Below, piece by piece: positions 1,224 through 37,900 of a DNA stretch of 64,000 nucleotides. The position numbers and the translations under genes were made by a program. Numbering within the stretch: the first letter of the stretch is position 1; the number at the start of each line of letters is the position of its first letter. The notes beneath the pieces are model-generated. The model was not told where the DNA came from, did not search any database, and saw only the letters and a list, made by a program, of their open reading frames with translations. This DNA is from Candidatus Hydrogenedentota bacterium (lineage in GTDB: Bacteria > Hydrogenedentota > Hydrogenedentia > Hydrogenedentales > SLHB01), in the NCBI GenBank assembly GCA_020849535.1, contig JADLGB010000154.1:1-64000 (forward strand). The letters run 5' to 3'.

Positions 1224-1323
1224 AAGCAGCGATTCGAATAGAGTATGTCTCTTTGCTCTGCTTCATTTTTCCCAGGCCCGCCTCAGCCTCACGCGCTGGC
1301 CCGGCCCAGCATGGAGCGAAAGA

Positions 1324-1356
1324 CGTGTGGCATAGGCGCCCTCGCCTGTGCTCTTC
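1324..1356 (+). repeat. dispersed palindromic (REP-like) element, copy A
   Basis: A 33-nt unit whose core, CATAGGCG-CCCT-CGCCTGTG (1331-1350), folds into an 8-bp stem (one G-T pair) with a 4-nt loop. The whole unit recurs in inverted orientation at 13949-13981 with all 33 positions identical, and as variants at 14068-14110 and 14199-14239. Confidence 0.75.
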
Positions 1357-1521: not shown

Positions 1522-4518
1522 ATGAAGACCGTAATCGCGCGCATGATGTTTATCCCTTTCTTCCTTTGCTTTCTAGCGCTGGCGCAGGAGACGCCTGGCG
1601 AAGACAGCGCCGATAAGGATTACAGCGCGGAACTAATCCGCATCCCCCCGACAGAACCCGCAGACGCGCTCTCGACATTTCAGGTGCATCCGGATTTCCG
1701 CATGGAGCTTGTTGCCGCGGAGCCGCTGGTACGCGATCCCATTGCCATGGCCTTTGATGAACGCGGCCGCCTCTTCGTGGTGGAGATGCGGGGCTATTCA
1801 GAGGAGCGCGATGAGAACATCGGCGAGATCCGCATGCTGGAGGACGGCAATGGGGACGGCGTATACGACACGGCTTCCTCGTATGTGGACGGATTGGCGT
1901 GGCCGACCGCGGTTGCGTGTTACGACGGCGGCGTCTTTGTGGGCGTGCCGCCAGACATCCTGTTCTGCAAGGACACGGACGGGGATGGGCGCGCGGATGT
2001 TCGCGAGGTCGTCTACACGGGCTTCCATCTCACCAACGTGCAAGGCCTGTTGAACACCTTCCTGTGGGGACTCGACAATCGCATTCACGGCGCGACGAGC
2101 AGTTCCGGGGCCGATGTGCAGCTCGCGAGCGATCTGGCGAAAGCGACCGTGCCACTTCGCGGCCGGGACTTCTCGTTCGATCCGCGAACCAAAGACTTCC
2201 GGCCAGAAAGCGGCGGTGCGCAGCACGGCATGAGCTTCGACGACTGGGGCCACAGGTTCGTCTGTTCGAACAGCGACCACATTCAGTTGGTCATGTTCGA
2301 CGATCAATACGTTTTCCGCAATCCCTATCTGGCCGCGCCGAGTCCGCGCATCAGCATCGCGCCGGACGGGCCGGCGGCCGACGTCTACCGGATCAGCCCC
2401 GTCGAACCGTGGCGCATCGTGCGGACGCGTCTCCGCGTCAAAGGGATTGTGGAAGGTCCCGTGGAAGGAGGTGGAAAGGCCGCGGGGTATTTCACGAGTG
2501 CCACGGGAATCACGATTTACCGGGGCGACGCGTGGCCCGCGGAGTATCGCGGCCAGGCCTTCATCGGCGATGTCGGGGGGAACCTCATTCATCGCAAAGT
2601 ACTGAGCGATGATGGCGTGGCGCTCACGGCGCACCGGGCGAAGGGCGAAGAGAAGACGGAGTTCGTCGCATCGACGGACATTTGGTTCCGGCCGGTGCAA
2701 TTTGCGAATGGACCCGACGGCGCGCTGTATGTGGCCGACATGTACCGGGAGATCATCGAGCATCCCGACAGCCTTCCGCCGGTGATCAAGAGGCACCTCG
2801 ACCTGACCAGCGGGCGCGACCGCGGGCGCATCTACCGGATTGTCCCGCGCGCATTTAAGCAGCCCGCGATTCCGGACCTGGGCAAGGCCTCCGCGATCGA
2901 GCTGGCGGCGCTGCTCGAGCACCCCAACGCGTGGCACCGGGAAACAGCCGCGCGCTTGCTGTACGAGCGGCAGGACGCGTCGTGCGTGCCCGCAATCCAG
3001 CGGATGGCGGTGGAGTCCGGCAGCGAATCGGGCCGCGTGCAGGCGCTCTATTCACTTTCCGGTTTGCGGGCGCTGACTCCGGAGGTTCTGCTTCAGGGCC
3101 TCATGGATGCCAGCGCCGTTGGGCGGGCCCACGCCGTGCGCCTATCGGAGCCATTGCTGAAGGACTCCCGTGAGTTAAGCGAGAAGATGTGCGCCCTGGC
3201 TGATGACTCCGACATCCGCGTCCGTTATCAGGTTGCGTTCTCTCTTGGTGAAATGGGAGGCGCGGAACGGAATGCCGCGCTCGCGCAACTCGCCAAGCAA
3301 GACGGAGAGGACACCTGGTTTCGACTGGCGATCTTGAGTTCGGCCGTGTCGGGCTCCGGCGAAGTCTTCTCGCTGCTTGCCGCCGATTCGGCCTATCGGA
3401 GCGGCGGCACGGGCAAGGAGTTTCTGGAAGCGCTGGCGAAGCAGACAGGTTCGACGGGCCAGGACGGTGATGTGGCCCGCGCGCTGGAGACTATCGACGC
3501 GCTTCCCGCAGAAGAGGACGGCCTTGCGCGGAGCGCCGTGCGGGGTATCATCCAGGGCATGAAGCAAGCGGGCCGGGGGGCCGAATCTCAGGCGATTCTC
3601 GCACGGAGCCAACGCGCGGAAGCGCTGCTTGCCAGTCTTTTGGAGTCCGCCCGCCGCGAGGCAGTGGATGCTCAGAAGGACGTTGCAGTACGCGCGGATG
3701 CGATACAGACACTTGGATTCGACACATTTGAGCATAACCGCGAACTGTTGCCTCCGCTTATCGCGGAGCATGAGCCCGCGGAAGTTCAGAGCGCCGCGTT
3801 GGACACGTTACGCTCGTTTGACCAAGCGGAAGTCGCGGACATCATCCTGAACGCGTGGGGAGGACTCACTCCGCAGGTGCGTGCCCAGGCCGTCGAGGCC
3901 CTGTTTTCGCGGACGTCATGGATTGCGCGTCTTATCGATGCCATCGAACGCGGTTCGTTCGATCCCAGGAACCTAGACTCGACGCGCGTCCGCGCGCTTC
4001 AATCCCATGTCGACACCGGCATTCGCGAGCGCGCGACGACACTGCTGGCGGGTCTCTCGCTGGGATCGCGGCAAGACGTGGTCGACGCCTGTCAGGACGT
4101 TCTCACAATGAGCGGCGATCGCGAGCGCGGAAAGACGCTATTCGTCGAGAACTGCAGCAAATGTCATCGTCTGCAGGGGGTGGGACACGAAGTGGGCCCG
4201 GACCTCTCCACAGTCGCCCAGGCGGGTCCCGACAAGATCCTCGTCAATGTACTCGACCCCAATCGCGAGGTGAATCCGCAGTACGTCAACTACACTATCG
4301 AGACCGGTGATTGGGAGTCGCATAGCGGCATCATCGCGTCGGAAACAGCGACGAGCATCACCATGAAACGCGCGGATGGAGAAACCGACACCATTCTGCG
4401 CGTGAATATTCAGTCCATAAAGAGCGATAATCTGTCTATCATGCCCGAGGGGTGGGAGCAGACGATTGACAAGCAGGGCTTGGCGGATCTGATCGCCTAT
4501 CTCACGGCGTTGGAGTAG
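1522..4518 (+). CDS. PVC-type membrane-bound dehydrogenase: beta-propeller, HEAT repeats, cytochrome c
   Basis: This 998-aa exported protein starts at ATG 1522 with a signal peptide (MKTVIARMMFIPFFLCFLAL). Residues about 55-440 match the N-terminal beta-propeller of PVC-type dehydrogenases (DGNGDG and DTDGDG Asp-rich turns, HGMSFDDWGHRF). Residues about 445-850 are alpha-helical HEAT-like repeats. The C-terminal 130 residues are a cytochrome c module with haem motif CSKCH (first Cys at about 878). The family is abundant in planctomycetes and relatives and is thought to oxidise sugars or alcohols in the periplasm, passing electrons to the fused cytochrome; the substrate is unknown. It is followed closely by a lipoprotein gene and an amidohydrolase gene, suggesting a catabolic operon. 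The in-frame start at 1348 was rejected because that region is intergenic repeat. Confidence 0.88.
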   Translation: MKTVIARMMFIPFFLCFLALAQETPGEDSADKDYSAELIRIPPTEPADALSTFQVHPDFRMELVAAEPLVRDPIAMAFDERGRLFVVEMRGYSEERDENIGEIRMLEDGNGDGVYDTASSYVDGLAWPTAVACYDGGVFVGVPPDILFCKDTDGDGRADVREVVYTGFHLTNVQGLLNTFLWGLDNRIHGATSSSGADVQLASDLAKATVPLRGRDFSFDPRTKDFRPESGGAQHGMSFDDWGHRFVCSNSDHIQLVMFDDQYVFRNPYLAAPSPRISIAPDGPAADVYRISPVEPWRIVRTRLRVKGIVEGPVEGGGKAAGYFTSATGITIYRGDAWPAEYRGQAFIGDVGGNLIHRKVLSDDGVALTAHRAKGEEKTEFVASTDIWFRPVQFANGPDGALYVADMYREIIEHPDSLPPVIKRHLDLTSGRDRGRIYRIVPRAFKQPAIPDLGKASAIELAALLEHPNAWHRETAARLLYERQDASCVPAIQRMAVESGSESGRVQALYSLSGLRALTPEVLLQGLMDASAVGRAHAVRLSEPLLKDSRELSEKMCALADDSDIRVRYQVAFSLGEMGGAERNAALAQLAKQDGEDTWFRLAILSSAVSGSGEVFSLLAADSAYRSGGTGKEFLEALAKQTGSTGQDGDVARALETIDALPAEEDGLARSAVRGIIQGMKQAGRGAESQAILARSQRAEALLASLLESARREAVDAQKDVAVRADAIQTLGFDTFEHNRELLPPLIAEHEPAEVQSAALDTLRSFDQAEVADIILNAWGGLTPQVRAQAVEALFSRTSWIARLIDAIERGSFDPRNLDSTRVRALQSHVDTGIRERATTLLAGLSLGSRQDVVDACQDVLTMSGDRERGKTLFVENCSKCHRLQGVGHEVGPDLSTVAQAGPDKILVNVLDPNREVNPQYVNYTIETGDWESHSGIIASETATSITMKRADGETDTILRVNIQSIKSDNLSIMPEGWEQTIDKQGLADLIAYLTALE

Positions 4519-10086: not shown

Positions 10087-11003
10087 CGTGTCGCCGCGAT
10101 CAGATCCGCCGCCCCCTGTTCGAGGAGCTGCAGGGCGGCAGCCTGTCCAAGTGACACGGCGTCCGAGGCGGCGCCTTCGCACTGGGTCTTAAGCACCGTC
10201 TTTCCGTCCACGCTGCACACGCAGGCGGTGAGTGAAAGGCGCGACCCCTGCACGCGCGCGAGCGCGCCGATGGGCACTTGGCAGCCACCTTCGAGCGCGG
10301 CCAGGCAGGTGCGCTCGGCCACCACCTCGGCGGTCGCGTAGGGATCGGCGATGCGCTCCAGAATCTCGATGGTCCCTGCGTCGTCAGCGCGCACCTCGAT
10401 ACCCAGAGCGCCTTGCGCGGGTGCGGGAATCATGATATCCACAGGCAGCGTGGACCGGATGGACTCGCACAGTCCGAGGCGCTCCAGACCGGCGCACGCG
10501 AGAATGGCGGCGTCGACCGCGCCTTCGGCCACGCGACGCACCCGAGTCTCGACGTTGCCGCGTAGATTCACTACTTTAAGATCTGGACGATAGGCGAGGA
10601 GCTGGGCCTGCCGCCGCAGGCTTGACGTGCCGACTTTGGCCCCGACGGGCAGTTCCGCCACATCATGGAATCGCTCGCAGACGAATGCGTCGTAGGGCGT
10701 CTCCCGCTCCGGCACGGCGCCCAGCGTCAGGCCCTCCGGCAGTTCGGTCGGCAGATCCTTGAGGCTGTGCACGGCGAGGTCGATGCGGCCTTCCGCGAGG
10801 GCCACCTCGAGTTCTTTGGTGAACAGCCCTTTCCCTCCGATCTGCGCCAGCGGCGTATCACGGATGTGGTCGCCCTTTGTGTGAATCACTTCGATGGTGA
10901 CCGTAAGGCCGGTCGCGGCCTCGCGCAGCGCATCGGCCATGGCATTGGCCTGCACAAGCGCGAGTTGGCTTCCCCGGGATCCTATGACCAATGCCGATTT
11001 CAC
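10083..11003 (-). CDS. hemC: hydroxymethylbilane synthase (porphobilinogen deaminase)
   Basis: This 306-aa enzyme polymerises four porphobilinogens into hydroxymethylbilane. It shows IGSRGSQLALVQAN, HTKGDHIRD, the substrate-site HSLKDLPTE, GTSSLRRQAQLL and the dipyrromethane-cofactor cysteine in LEGGCQVPIGA (Cys241). The start is GTG at 11003, overlapping the hemA stop as GTGA, and the stop overlaps the next start as ATGA, indicating tight translational coupling through the operon. Confidence 0.97.
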   Translation of the reverse strand: MKSALVIGSRGSQLALVQANAMADALREAATGLTVTIEVIHTKGDHIRDTPLAQIGGKGLFTKELEVALAEGRIDLAVHSLKDLPTELPEGLTLGAVPERETPYDAFVCERFHDVAELPVGAKVGTSSLRRQAQLLAYRPDLKVVNLRGNVETRVRRVAEGAVDAAILACAGLERLGLCESIRSTLPVDIMIPAPAQGALGIEVRADDAGTIEILERIADPYATAEVVAERTCLAALEGGCQVPIGALARVQGSRLSLTACVCSVDGKTVLKTQCEGAASDAVSLGQAAALQLLEQGAADLIAATR

Positions 11004-13948: not shown

Positions 13949-13981
13949 GAAGAGCACAGGCGAGGGCGCCTATGCCACACG
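13949..13981 (-). repeat. dispersed palindromic (REP-like) element, copy B
   Basis: Reverse-complement copy of the element at 1324-1356, identical over all 33 positions. The core (13955-13974) is an 8-bp stem with a 4-nt loop. It lies just after the DtxR-like gene and could act as a transcript end. Confidence 0.75.
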
Positions 13982-14067
13982 TCTATTTCCAATTCCTGGC
14001 TTGGTTTAGATTCTTGATGTCTTTGGCAAAGCAGGGACCGGAAGAAATGAAGAATAGCTATATGCGG

Positions 14068-14110
14068 GGCAAGCGCGTGTGGCACAGCCGCCCTCGGCTG
14101 TGTCTTCGTC
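14068..14110 (+). repeat. dispersed palindromic element, copy C (compensated stem)
   Basis: The core CACAGCCG-CCCT-CGGCTGTG (14083-14102) differs from copies A, B and D by one G-to-C change in the left arm matched by C-to-G in the right arm, preserving all eight pairs. It shares the flanks GCAAGCGCGTGTGG and TCTTCGTCC with copy D. Confidence 0.75.
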
Positions 14111-14198
14111 CACCTCCTGTCCTTTGCTTGTTTTAGGCTCTCGAAGATTTCAAGTACGCCCATGATGGGAAGAAAGGAAGAAACGTTCAAGGCATGGC

Positions 14199-14239
14199 AA
14201 GCGCGTGTGGCACAGGCGCCCTCGCCTGTGTCTTCGTCC
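14199..14239 (+). repeat. dispersed palindromic element, copy D
   Basis: The core CACAGGCG-CCCT-CGCCTGTG (14211-14230) is a perfect 8-bp stem. With copies B and C this gives three copies within 300 nt. The intergenic interval 13915-14354 contains only these elements and the hairpin pair at 14287-14324; no gene is supported there. Confidence 0.75.
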
Positions 14240-19100: not shown

Positions 19101-20467
19101 ACTACTACATGCCGAACCCCGCAAACGAAGACACCGTCGACTTTCTGGTCAAGAACCGTGTGAACACATTTTGCATCGTTGCCACTCTGGACCAAGCGCC
19201 GCCGGCCATTCGGCAGCGGGGTGGCCTTATCCACGGGCCCGGCCACATTTTCAAGGAATTCCTTCCGCAAGAGGCGCTCTTCTCCGAGCATCCCGAATAT
19301 TTCCCGATGATCGAAGGCAAGCGGGCCGTCACCGGGAAAGGCGCGTGTTTTTCCAATCCCGAAGTGCGCCGCATCTTCCGGGAACGGCTGCGCGACTACG
19401 TTCGCGCGCACCCGTACTGGGACATCTTCGCGCTGTGGGCGGAAGACGTCGCCTATGCGGCCTACTGCGAATGCGGGGAATGCGCCAAGATGTCCACGGC
19501 GGGGTGGTACATGACCTTGGTCAACGACGCCGCGCCCGTGGTCGAAGCGGAGTTGCCGCAAGCCCTGTTCGAGTTCATCGCCTATCACGAGACCCGGTGG
19601 CCGCCGAAGGAAATCATCCCGCTTTACCAGAACGGCAAGAACATGATCTTGAACCTGTGCCTCGGCTACTCGCGGAACGGCTTCCACACCTTGGCGTCCG
19701 GCAAGGACGGCAACGCCGAAGTCCTCGAGATGTATGTCGCTTGGAAGAAGCGCCTCGATGATGTGGGCTTTGAAGGACGCCGGATCCTCTTCGACTACTA
19801 CAACCGCTGCGAAGTGACCGCGGGCCACGGCCCTTCGGGGCAGTCTTTGATATGGCCCATGGAGGTGATCGCCGAGGACACGAAGTACTACCTTGCCGAC
19901 GGCATCAGCGGCCTGGGGGATTGGGTCTGTTTCAGCCGCCTGTGCTGGCCGACGCCGTTCAATGTGTGGTGCTGGCTCCAGTGGTACTCGACGCCGGAGC
20001 GGCCATTGAGTGAGTTGGAGGAGGAATTCTATCCCGCGTACTTCGCTGAAGCCGGACCGGCCGTTCTGGATTATACACATGCTCTTCAGGCGGCCATGTA
20101 TGCCGACACGTCGCGGGAGAACATCGAGCGAGTTGCCGGACTTCGCGCGCAGTTGGATGCCTTGGTGGATGCGCAGCAGGATCCGGTCGTGAAACATCGC
20201 ATCGAAGTGGTGCGCAATCATCACGAGTACTGCGTGATGCTCAAGCGCATCTTCCTGGCTTTCATGGAAGGTGACGAGCAAGCTTGGAGCGGGATGATGC
20301 AGGAATACGTGGATTTCTACCCCGTCACGCACAAGGAATTGCTGAAAGACGAGATCGACATACCCTCCCAGTTCATGAACCTGTGGTATGAATACCACCT
20401 CAAGCGGCCGCCTGAGCAGATCCCGGAAGTCCTGAAGGCGCTCGTGTCGAACCCCTCATCACGATAG
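16139..20467 (+). CDS. giant exported hydrolase: GH95-like domain fused to DUF4838 module
   Basis: This 1442-aa protein with an N-terminal signal-like segment starts at ATG 16139 behind GGAAGGAGG (16124-16132). Residues about 30-820 resemble GH95-type (alpha/alpha)6 glycosidases: LLGNGGLGAVVTT near the N-terminus, a central NTQQPFW/WEICETPWAVQGLWWHYLYT barrel region, and the family-like ending LMQSYDGTIRLFPNWPKD followed by a small beta domain. From about residue 830 a second unit begins: FAASELQEYLRKATGVDLTI, typical of the GH67-N-like domain before DUF4838. Then comes the DUF4838 core with FALWAEDVAYAAYCECGECAKM. Both modules occur separately in polysaccharide-degrading PVC bacteria; the fusion suggests coupled attack on one glycan. 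Catalytic residues cannot be assigned from sequence alone. Confidence 0.8.
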   Translation: MFNGVVTWAVLAMVLGAAPEAGVGASSLDPLVRAARHPLEINRPSPDFFDGALLGNGGLGAVVTTRPDAIVVHFGHNNVWDIRIAEDHKDKIGTFREVFEKVAAISADLPSLESDPWYAAYRDMTHANYRKPYPRPYPCGSLLLGFDRRKVELLGHRLDIATGLCVVRLLVDQTPAELRIFVELAKDRLWVQLTDANGNPIANCLDRIRLIPDPDAPATIPSYEVLDAPTNSLSFRQVLPRNEPVADQPGQPDPRDRAFRLSVRVNVVIEPKTRLNWEGLEQQMGPLERGFASTEPFMAMVRLDEGLASSIGAEVPELLPPTSELFAAAFDESQESWRTYWTRSGVALDDEFLERIWYWNHYFFNCAAKSGVNCPGLFANWSYRNIGTAWHGDYHMNYNTQQPFWLPFSSNRIEKNLPYVELVERLLPLSRQWAQEYYGLRGAYFPHSAYPVEMTMSPYPVPTWGWEICETPWAVQGLWWHYLYTMDTDYLRDRAFVPVRDAVLFLVDYMKRPEARGERWNDDRYHIFPTVPPELYGLKPGFKYNYDCLVDLTLTKFVMKAYLEATRVLGVEDSEKKLIADVRDILDHFPDYPTAESGYGKVFVSVSGEHAEVVYNTPNSLMTVFPGEDHGLHSPADIGEILRNTYRNTQNEGGNDLVFMNLQAARIGMLDLERFKRQIEYCMLPDGTCTNMVLQVHGRYNDTTPFDFMAPMGIWFENFSLPVVINECLMQSYDGTIRLFPNWPKDKPAAFRTLRAAGAFLVSASCSGGRVNEVEVLSEAGSTLRILIPWEEGARVARPSATTETADALLEMPTVAGETIHLLPHAARADNAPVAKIRVKAADGSSTPIERIHVVPGSPDPVRFAASELQEYLRKATGVDLTIAEGLPERGAFFVTTSQAATDAPADAVNFGQGGFDRSAITVHDGCIYLIGENPRSALYAVYDFLQSSLGIRFFGPGEQHEYVPARDTLALEEGFQMRKASAFEFRDYYMPNPANEDTVDFLVKNRVNTFCIVATLDQAPPAIRQRGGLIHGPGHIFKEFLPQEALFSEHPEYFPMIEGKRAVTGKGACFSNPEVRRIFRERLRDYVRAHPYWDIFALWAEDVAYAAYCECGECAKMSTAGWYMTLVNDAAPVVEAELPQALFEFIAYHETRWPPKEIIPLYQNGKNMILNLCLGYSRNGFHTLASGKDGNAEVLEMYVAWKKRLDDVGFEGRRILFDYYNRCEVTAGHGPSGQSLIWPMEVIAEDTKYYLADGISGLGDWVCFSRLCWPTPFNVWCWLQWYSTPERPLSELEEEFYPAYFAEAGPAVLDYTHALQAAMYADTSRENIERVAGLRAQLDALVDAQQDPVVKHRIEVVRNHHEYCVMLKRIFLAFMEGDEQAWSGMMQEYVDFYPVTHKELLKDEIDIPSQFMNLWYEYHLKRPPEQIPEVLKALVSNPSSR

Positions 20468-20491
20468 CGCGGGTACCAGCGGCGGGCGCCT

Positions 20492-31130: not shown

Positions 31131-31364
31131 TGGAACGTTGCTTTTCCCTGCCGTGTTCGACAGGGCGGAGAAACTTTGTACCTTAAACTTTGAACCGGGA
31201 GTCCAACATCTGTTGTAGCCAACGGCATGCCGCCGTGAGCGGAAGTCGACCGGCTATCGTGAGGACACCCCCCTTGTGGGTAGGTTCAAAAGTTTCCCTC
31301 CCAACGGCAATGTGCGGGGAAGTTTATCTGAGCGGGAAGCTTCGGCGACCCGCTCGTCTTATTT
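31131..31364 (+). ncRNA. candidate small RNA or leader RNA upstream of the pil operon
   Basis: A stretch of about 230 nt is framed by promoter P1 and a Rho-independent-type terminator (31330-31364), with no credible ORF. Local stems include CCCTG-N10-CAGGG and ACGGC-N5-GCCGT. It does not resemble 6S, tmRNA, RNase P, SRP RNA or c-di-GMP riboswitches as far as I can judge. It could be an independent sRNA or an attenuator for the downstream operon. Confidence 0.4.
31330..31364 (+). terminator. terminator between P1 and P2
   Basis: GAGCGGG (31330-31336) pairs with CCCGCTC (31349-31355) around a 12-nt loop, followed by GTCTTATTT. The moderate T-rich tail supports intrinsic termination. Confidence 0.55.
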
Positions 31365-34948: not shown

Positions 34949-37900
34949 ATGTTACCACGCAAGACAACGTGCACAGTGGCCACGCTGGCCGCGCTACTCG
35001 CCGCCACGGCGTTTGCCGCCGGGACGGACTCCATCGAGCAGCGTAAGGAGAGCATTGTCCGCGTCTCGCTGGAAAAGCAGGGACGCGCGGCGGCCGACCC
35101 CTCCTTGCTCGAATCGGCGCGGCAGGCGGCGGCGCTTGTCAGCCTGACGTTCAGCGAAACGCCGGGCGATACCGCGCTGCAGATCCACACCGAGGGTAAG
35201 CCGGCCTACGATTGGTTTTATCTCGATGACAGCAACAAGCTCGTCATCGACTTCCACAATACCATCAATTTTGAATCGGGCAAGGAATTCGTGCCCGAGG
35301 GCGATTCCCCGATCACCAAGGTCAGGACGAGCCTGTTCAAACTGGAACCCGAGTTTGTCTCCCGCGTGGTGGTGGAGACGAAATCCAAGGGGGTCCCATC
35401 TTTCAACGAGGTGGAAAAAGGGATTGAATTGCGCCTTGCGCCAAACGGCGCCGTGAAGGCGGCGGACGCTCCACCGCCCTCGCTGGCGGCCCAGATTCTG
35501 TCCGAACTCGATCAACAGCGCCAAGCGGTTCGCATTGCGAAAGAGCAGCTCGAAGAAAGCGCCATGCGCGCGCAGTCCGAGCAACCGGCGGTGGCGTTGG
35601 GCGAGACGCCGGAACTGGACTCGCCCGCGCAACAAGCGCTTCGCAGTCTGGTGCAACAGGAAGAGGCCTCCGGCACGGAGTTCTGGTCGCACGTCGAGCA
35701 GAGTGTGGGAACGGCGAATGAGCGCATTGATTCGTTGGAAGCACGGGTACGCGACATTCAGTCTTCCGTCGAGAAGGGTAGCGTCGCGGATAGCGCCGCG
35801 ACATCAGCCCTGAAAGCCATTCAGAAAGAGACCCAGCATGGCGCCGAGCAAGACCGGCAATACTTCGCGGAACTGGACGCGAAATTGCAGGAGAGGCAAA
35901 CACAGTTTCGCCAGGAGTTGGACCGCCTGTCTACAGGGGATTTGACCGTCGCCGGCGCCCCGGCGGACGCGGCGGCGCCCGTTGAGGCCGGTGTTCCAGC
36001 GGAGACGGTGACCAAGGCGCTGGAAGGCCTGAGCATGATGCTGGCCAAGAGCATGCCGGAACAGGCGCCTGCCCCCGTACCGGTCGTTGTGGAAGGGGAT
36101 GTGTCGGTTGCCTCGCCGCTTCCCACTGGCGAGACCGAAGTGATCACCAATGAACTGGCTTCGCTCGAGAAGCCGGTTGAGCCGCTCTTAAATGCTCCCA
36201 CCCCCGCACCGGATCTGCAGGAAGTCGCGTCGGTGCCATTGGACCTCGCGTCCGCGCCCATCGGCGCATTGGCGGACGCGGCAGCGGCCACTCAGCCGGA
36301 AACCAAGGCGGCGGAGGAAACCACGCCGGAGCCCGCGGAGGCAGCCACAGAAGCAGCCGCTTCGTCTGAGACCGCGGAACCACCGGCGGCCTCTCCAGAG
36401 GCGCCCAAGGAAGAAGCCCCTGCTCAGGCCGAACCCCCCGCGGAGCCTGCCGCTCCGGCCACGGAAGAGGCGAAGCCCGCCGAAACCGCGACGGCCAGCC
36501 CTGAGGCGGAAGCGCCTGCGGCCGAGGAAGCGGCGCCTGCGGCCGAAGAGAAGACCGAGGAACAACCCGAGCCGACCGTGGTGACCGAGCCGGAAGCGCC
36601 GGTTGTCGCTCAGCCAGCGGAGGCAGAGCCGTTGGCCCCGCCGGTGACCGAGCCCGAGCCAACCGTGCTGGCAGACGTGTCGCGCGAACAGTTGCCTCCG
36701 GGTATGGATCCGCTGGACCAGCCCGTAAACATCGACTTTCGCGAAATGGACCTGAGCGCGGTGGTATCGCTGCTGGCGAAGAAGGCGCAGGTCAACGTCA
36801 TCGCGGGCACCGAGATTATCGGTACCGTAACCGCGGACATTCGTAACGTGCCGTTGCGCCAGGCCATGGATATGGTGCTGCGCATGAACGGCCTGGGCAT
36901 CGTCGAGGAAGAAGGCGTCTTCCGGATCGTGCCCTATGAGGAAGCGGTCGCGGCGCGCCGGGTCACGCGGATGCTGGTCCTCGACAACGCGCAGGCGGAC
37001 GACGTGAAGGCAACGCTGGATGGGATTCTCGTGGGGGCGGCCGACGCGCAACTCATGACGATCTCGGCGAACTCGGCCACGAACGTCGTGCTGCTTTCTG
37101 GACCGGAAGAGCGCGTCGCCGAGTTCGAGACGCTGGCGAAGCAGCTTGACGTATCAGAGCCTGCGATGCCGACCGTTACGGAAGCCATCAAGCTCAACTA
37201 TCTGGAACCCGGAGACGCCAAGCCGATTGTCGATACCCTCATCACGGAGGAAGTGGGCAAGAGCGAAATTGACGCACAGGGCCGCCACATCGTCGTGACG
37301 GACATGCCCGTGGTCGTCGAGCAGATTCGCACCCTGCTGCAATCGGTGGACAAACCGGTCAAGCAGGTGGCCATCGAGGCGATGATCGTGGACGCGGTCA
37401 TGCGTGACGGTTCGCAGACCGGCGTGTCCTGGTTGCTCGACGCCATCCGGAAGTACAGCAGCAACGGCGATCTCATCAGCGACGTGTCGGAAGCGGGATT
37501 CCGCAGCAACCTTGGCGTCGGTTTTGATGACACCGGCGTGCCCAATGCGAGTCAGTTGGGCACCGCGCTGGACGCGGCAGCCATCACGCTCGGTATCCTG
37601 ACCAACGATATCCGGCTGAACACGGTCATTGCGGCGGAGACCCAGAGCCGCAATGCCGAGATTCTGGCAAACCCGAGCGTGGTTACGGTCGAGAATCAGC
37701 CGGCCACCATCAGCATCGTACAGGAGTTCCCGTATCAGGAAATCACGCAGGGCCTGACGGGGCCGCCTGTCTCGACAACGGAATTCAAGGACATCGGTGT
37801 TACGTTGGAGGTGACACCACGGGTGACGCACGAAAACGACACGATCGTGAACATCCGGGCCAAGCAGAGCAGCGTGAGCGGCCTTACGGAAGACGGGATC

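Follow-up and report, generated by a model that had tools for sequence, protein, structure and literature searches.

A GTGG-tagged REPIN-RAYT system in Candidatus Hydrogenedentota

The 64,000-nucleotide stretch of a Candidatus Hydrogenedentota contig analyzed here (the window) carries several copies of a short palindrome, raising the questions of what kind of element it is and which enzyme, if any, might mobilize it. The initial annotation had reported four copies in both orientations; all four were found where it had placed them, and copies A (forward strand) and B (reverse strand) are exact reverse complements, their match extending over 36 nt rather than the 33 nt first given. The features are as follows, SJ204 being the genome of a sister species:

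1321-1356, forward strand: copy A, a single REP; GTGG tag at 1327-1330, hairpin at 1331-1350
13949-13984, reverse strand: copy B, a REP forming the left half of an inverted pair; hairpin at 13955-13974
14076-14106, forward strand: copy C, a REP with a compensated CCG/CGG stem, right half of the pair; hairpin at 14083-14102
14204-14234, forward strand: copy D, a third REP; hairpin at 14211-14230
13949-14111, unstranded: the inverted pair B-C (REPIN/BIME unit); SJ204 (L240) likewise has a pair at this locus
14112-14239, forward strand: an extra 128-bp unit with copy D, beyond the single pair of SJ204 at this locus

Window copies and the REP population of the genome

The core CACAGGCG-N4-CGCCTGTG matches the window at 1331-1350, 13955-13974, 14083-14102 and 14211-14230 with 1, 1, 2 and 0 mismatches respectively, and a fifth match, with 3 mismatches, lies at 36501. 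These five matches at up to 3 mismatches compare with a mean of 0.72 in shuffled sequences, none of 100 of which reached five. The G-C to C-G swap first noticed in the stem of copy C is present with pairing kept, and it is also found in the hairpins that flank the RAYT gene of the same genome. Copies C and D are held in a direct repeat of 128 bp (14040-14111 versus 14168-14239, 85% identical), and the inverted pair of the window, folded as single-stranded DNA, reaches -40.9 kcal/mol (z -5.3). At this locus SJ204, whose contig ends soon after, has one pair only against three REPs in the genome under study, which therefore has one unit more; which of copies C and D is the added unit is not certain. 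A 6S RNA (RF00013) lies elsewhere in the window, at 31142-31324 on the forward strand (70.5 bits; gathering score 46.4).

The host genome (G000; 7,831,326 bp in 336 contigs) contains the core at up to 2 mismatches in 335 places, against 8 for a reversed-pattern control, so that the genome-wide copy number that the initial annotation had proposed to check is indeed high. The core together with the GTGG tag occurs in 334 places (control 0). The consensus is GTGTGG-CACAGGCG-CCCT-CGCCTGTG, comprising the GTGG tag, an 8-bp stem and a 4-nt loop. A survey of 2,386,766 bp of the genome for this anatomy (a GTGG tag, then an 8-bp stem in which seven or more pairs are Watson-Crick, closed by a 4-nt loop) recovered 149 sites, of which 120 were assigned to the REP family; the reversed control gave 20. 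The site density of this survey is biased, since some of the stretches were picked because the whole-genome search had sites there; in 60 stretches taken without regard to such sites (L094-L133, L160-L179; 814,387 bp in all), 23 were present. GT directly precedes the tag in nearly all of the 120 copies, and CT occurs within 4 nt past the hairpin in 94. The 5-prime stem arm is CACAGGCG in most genomic copies and CATAGCCG in a minority (12 of the 120).

These elements are commonly paired: 85 of the 120 REP sites have another less than 400 bp away, and 38 of 46 neighbor pairs are inverted with the tags inside, 34 of them spaced 121-127 bp, giving units about 155-162 bp long. An alignment of the 34 inverted pairs shows conserved ends, two different inner arms and conservation that fades beyond the hairpins. 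Of 101 REP centers, 33 fall within ORFs of at least 250 aa, compared with 82% of random points, in a test that used ORFs rather than called genes and left out 19 sites near stretch ends. The family thus has the properties of REP elements, namely a tagged short palindrome in more than 100 copies that is mainly extragenic by the ORF-based measure, and its pairs have the arrangement of BIMEs or REPINs, namely two inverse REPs at regular spacing.

Other repeats were seen in the same genome. The remaining 29 of the 149 GTGG sites belong mainly to a second GTGG-tagged family, CATGGGCA-TCCC-TGCCCATG, and its variants, along with chance sites; as GGCATGGGCATCCCTGCCCATG, this second family has 18 hits in the stretches of the host genome, and a hairpin resembling it flanks another SJ204 RAYT (L139). 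A further palindromic family, GCGCCGGCATCCCTGCCGGC, has 53 hits over both strands (control 0; e.g. in the flanks of L239 and L224), 12 of them within 200 bp of the REP family. Short repeats of the GATCGGAC type are enriched in the host stretches (140 hits versus 15 in the reversed control) and occur in 9 of the 120 REP 3-prime flanks, against 0.3% of random 30-mers (e.g. L083, about 10740-10760); they are possibly a preferred target.

The covariation first noticed in copy C recurs in other copies. For this purpose 204 matches were gathered by their inner flank and 146 retained for resemblance to one stem arm, the other 58, in which neither arm was resembled, being dropped; length-variant loops add noise to this set. 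Among the 146, position 6 has changed from G-C to C-G in 23 copies and position 1 from C-G to G-C in 7. Double changes yield Watson-Crick pairs in 37 of 62 cases, and single changes yield G.T on the tag strand in 47 of 152. The covariation score of two alignments of distinct copies (A1 and A2) was reached by none of 500 shuffles in either case and exceeded slid controls too, in alignments that lean toward structure because their rows were selected partly by pairing. The number of pairs with double changes among 46 host copies was reached by 144 of 500 shuffles, and the copies are not independent, as many belong to subfamilies of common descent. The argument that G.T wobble at stem position 3 proves selection on tag-strand folding was abandoned, since the wobbles cluster at a single position and probably in a single subfamily.

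The location of these elements mostly outside long ORFs and their compensated stem changes would also suit a regulatory role, as transcription terminators, operators or structured RNA, next to which a RAYT would be incidental, and such roles have been assigned to other REPs in the accessible text of PMC3733652 and PMC2817692. We consider this improbable, as scans found no T-run, terminator-like call, promoter-like site or Rfam match at the elements, and as regulation leaves the 125-bp inverted spacing, the one-sided GTGG tag and the flanks of the RAYT unexplained.

The RAYT gene and its relatives

The host genome has ten Y1_Tnp genes. One of them (C323:63998-64537, 180 aa), a free-standing gene in an open frame of 188 aa, scores 89 bits with the NCBIfam REP_Tyr_transpos model NF047646 (cut-off 80), and its only match among solved structures is E. 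coli TnpArep (4er8, E 2.4e-7). It bears the motifs DHVH, WQ and YICDNP and sits between two 162-nt inverted REP pairs that are 88% identical to each other; all four of these REP copies have the minority CATAGCCG stem. A Y1 HuH transposase with the Y---NP motif and inverted REPs on both sides is what characterizes a RAYT and a REPtron, and the RAYT-family gene that the initial annotation had suggested looking for is thus present with the element on either side. None of the remaining nine Y1_Tnp genes has such a flanking pair, with L065 having a degenerate copy about 1.4 kb away. The gene is single-copy in the genome at E 1e-15, and no tnpB was seen next to it. It falls outside IS200/IS605, as shown by YICDNP and by its 20.1 bits with NF033573 (cut-off 55), and it differs from RAYT group 3 (subclass 2.5), for which table 1 of PMC6006769 gives DH[LF]H, WQ and YI[VI]ANP, in having DHVH and YICDNP instead. 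It may nevertheless work like group 3.

Related RAYTs with hairpins occur in several other genomes. The RAYT of SJ204 (titled Candidatus Hydrogenedentota; the place of the gene is identical by G001 and by G056, the latter belonging to the host's own genus) is about 66-67% identical to that of the host in protein sequence and is flanked by CACAGGCG hairpins. RAYTs more distant from that of the host are found in G058 of the same family (60% identical, hairpin CGCAGCCG), UR.bin147, titled Planctomycetota (54%, CACAGCCG), palsa_191, titled Acidobacteriaceae (47%, CACAGGCA), G570 of the phylum of palsa_191 (56%, CACAGACA) and G573 (51%, with CACAGGCA on one side only). Beside these related RAYTs the stems vary in pairs, whereas the tag and loop are nearly constant. 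A scan around six more RAYTs of palsa_191's phylum (L252-L257) found no GTGG hairpin.

With its long terminal inverted repeats, the inverted pair might be taken for an ordinary MITE moved by a DDE transposase, the RAYT being a passenger. This is highly improbable, given that either end of the pair forms a GTGG-tagged hairpin of its own, that four copies near one gene are far too many at about one site per 23 kb, and that hairpins with the same tag recur next to related RAYTs in other genomes.

At E 1e-30 the RAYT occurs in 1 of 246 sampled genomes from the phylum of UR.bin147 and in 7 of 297 from that of palsa_191. The host's own phylum has it in 8 of 68 genomes at E 1e-15, including the host, 3 of them with at least 60% identity. 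REP and RAYT are not strictly coupled. Within the host's own phylum, the hairpin is present without a close RAYT (E 1e-15) in six genomes, G046 (54 copies), G010 (23; this genome carries a distant RAYT), G028 (21), G055 (17), G008 (10) and G009 (10), and G003, titled Verrucomicrobia, has 66 copies of the pattern and no close RAYT. Conversely, G058 has a close RAYT and no copies of the host pattern, having a different hairpin of its own. A tree of 24 RAYTs does not separate the phyla and leaves 13 of 21 inner branches open; as its backbone is unresolved, we claim no direction of transfer between phyla.

As a separate observation, several related RAYTs are embedded in frame within restriction-modification, BREX-like or DISARM-like genes. 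All eight RAYT-bearing very long open frames that were scanned, which were picked for length and give no estimate of frequency, also carry restriction or defense domains in frame with the RAYT:

L138, L150: RAYT in HsdR frames (HSDR_N with ResIII)
L137, L148, L156: RAYT in Eco57I/PglX-like methylase frames
L135, L159: RAYT in Type ISP frames (Type_ISP_C)
L142: RAYT in a DrmD-like helicase frame

The UR.bin147 RAYT, adjoining Type_ISP_C, is one of the eight, some of which also have flanking hairpin repeats. For NF047646 matches in 115 genomes of G003's phylum, most of the listed frames measure 150-450 aa and a minority exceed 600. A limited literature search found nothing on Y1_Tnp together with HsdR; "tyrosine transposase" did not appear among the matches listed for PglX, HsdR, DISARM or type ISP; the sole match for TnpAREP with restriction was a meeting report; and many of the matches listed for RAYT with restriction-modification apparently reflected an author name or another word.

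REPIN loci and RAYT position in two sister species

The locus comparison with SJ204 placed 9 of 37 SJ204 clusters and 12 of 87 host clusters with both flanks present. At most compared loci the element is common to both species rather than new, and matching loci with shared elements are numerous (host/SJ204 L115/L048, L090/L054, L078/L028, L085/L043 and L198/L040). Differences were also found: the host has three REPs at L083 where SJ204 has none between near-identical flanks, a difference found by inspection rather than by the locus comparison; a pair at L177 where SJ204 has other sequence; and one REP at L239 versus a pair in SJ204. In such differences between two genomes, including that of three REPs at L083, insertion and deletion are indistinguishable. 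An empty site at L039/L224, suggested by coordinates, was not counted because of poor alignment.

These comparisons bear on the most serious alternative, that most copies are relics of another RAYT (e.g. of the SJ204 type) and that the minority CCG stems are the only ones to which the host RAYT is cognate, the majority no longer moving in this genome. In its favor, the host RAYT is flanked by CATAGCCG and that of SJ204 by the majority CACAGGCG, and the inspected shared loci hold the CACAGGCG type. The species difference at L083, though, involves CACAGGCG copies, even if loss in SJ204 is possible, and some stem changes are tolerated by TnpAREP according to the accessible text of PMC8266576. We regard this alternative as a real possibility of somewhat less than even probability.

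The RAYT genes themselves occupy different places in the two species. Where the host has its RAYT (L092:13759-14799, 1041 bp), SJ204 has only 249 bp, on contig C536 (JADLCA010000536, about 3190-3445), between flanks that are 92-93% identical; less 97 bp of flank, the short site measures about 152 bp, by length the size of one pair. Reciprocally, a stretch of 244 bp on host contig C181 (about 20220-20470) stands in place of the 897-bp RAYT site of SJ204 (L030:3976-4872), the flanks being 91% identical on one side and 88% on the other. Judged by length and flanks, each species therefore seems to have a RAYT-free sequence of REPIN/BIME size where the other carries the gene. Both are draft metagenome assemblies, that of SJ204 about 81% complete, and collapse at the RAYT sites is a caveat against which it may be noted that the pairs flanking the host RAYT are only 88% identical.

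The two RAYTs agree at 14 of 46 four-fold sites (0.30), whereas 45 core pairs, some of them probably antisense frames, have a median agreement of 0.671 and never fall below 0.507; the two RAYTs thus seem to have diverged before the species did. Vertical orthology with mere fast protein evolution is weakened by this silent-site divergence, measured over 46 four-fold sites only. The observations from these two genomes suggest turnover of the RAYT while the REPIN population persists. This may have come about by reciprocal loss, between direct REPINs, of two ancestral RAYTs, by a separate acquisition in each genome, or by relocation. The gene can probably be lost or gained by recombination between the two directly repeated REPINs that flank it. 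A more general proposition, to which we give even odds, is that in this genus REPIN populations outlive their transposase, the REPINs staying at fixed sites and the RAYT being a replaceable cassette between two of them that would be lost or gained by recombination or transposition; such a cassette would account for anciently diverged RAYTs at different REPIN sites in two species.

Proposed mobilization and relation to known systems

Taken together, these observations indicate that the palindrome is very probably a non-autonomous, GTGG-tagged REP family, present mostly as inverted REPINs/BIMEs, whose likeliest mobilizer is the RAYT, an HuH/Y1-type single-strand DNA transposase. The initial reading of REP/BIME elements with possible RAYT mobilization is thereby supported; mobilization itself we infer from the copy number, the inverted spacing, the bracketed RAYT, the co-varied hairpins near related RAYTs and the differences between the sister species. 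Against it count the minority CATAGCCG flanks of the host RAYT where CACAGGCG is the majority, the hairpin-bearing genomes lacking a close RAYT together with the converse case of G058, and the sharing of the element by both species at most compared loci. By analogy with TnpAREP in other bacteria, the RAYT would recognize the tag strand folded as a hairpin, cleave at CT near the hairpin foot and paste the cleaved REPIN unit elsewhere.

REPINs were reportedly described by Bertels and Rainey in 2011 as inverted REP pairs forming a unit, with one RAYT copy per genome. The present system resembles theirs in the inverted pairs as unit and the single-copy RAYT, and differs in its longer linker and in the location of the sister species' RAYTs at different REPIN sites. 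With IS200/IS605 it shares the enzyme superfamily and the flanking hairpins, differing in YICDNP instead of Y---Q, the lack of an adjoining tnpB and the single copy.

A close likeness, in the accessible text of Di Nocera et al. (2013, PMC3733652), is to the GTAG super-family of REPs, within which the tag can also be GTGG, as it is in most Opitutus terrae GTAG-20 elements. Both have an unpaired tetranucleotide at one end, an 8-bp stem and a short loop; both are present in many copies, form inverted dimers with inward-placed tags (TT type) and flank a RAYT. The host phylum differs, the dimer spacing is about 125 bp as against spacers of 20-100 bp in most dimers of that paper, and, judging by its text, the stem and loop sequences seem to differ as well. 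The RAYT shares the HuH, WQ and Y---NP motifs with TnpAREP class 2, and in the available part of PMC6006769 GTGG tags belong to sequences marginal to subclass 2.2 and GT[AG]G to subclasses 2.7 and 2.8; its set of DHVH, WQ and YICDNP fits none of the subclasses tabulated there exactly. The short perfect hairpin with a 5-prime tetranucleotide is likewise that of the experimentally studied group 3 (PMC8266576, as far as accessible). GTGG-tagged REPs, REP dimers, REPtrons, in-frame REP insertions and patchy RAYT distribution are already described in the accessible text of PMC3733652, PMC8266576 and PMC6006769, and a literature search for palindromic repeats in Hydrogenedentes had as its sole match a sediment-metagenome study. 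What is described here is thus a new GTGG-tagged REPIN-RAYT system in Hydrogenedentota, of an already known type.

The accessible introduction of PMC8266576 states that there is no evidence for mobility of tnpAREP. Two species of the same genus that differ in the site of the RAYT offer a natural test of RAYTs as fixed, housekeeping-like genes, and the RAYT-free sites of REPIN size, one in each species, suggest a simple way in which a RAYT could be lost and replaced. The system is also a well-populated addition from an uncultured phylum, and genomes titled as two other phyla contain related pairs of RAYT and hairpin.
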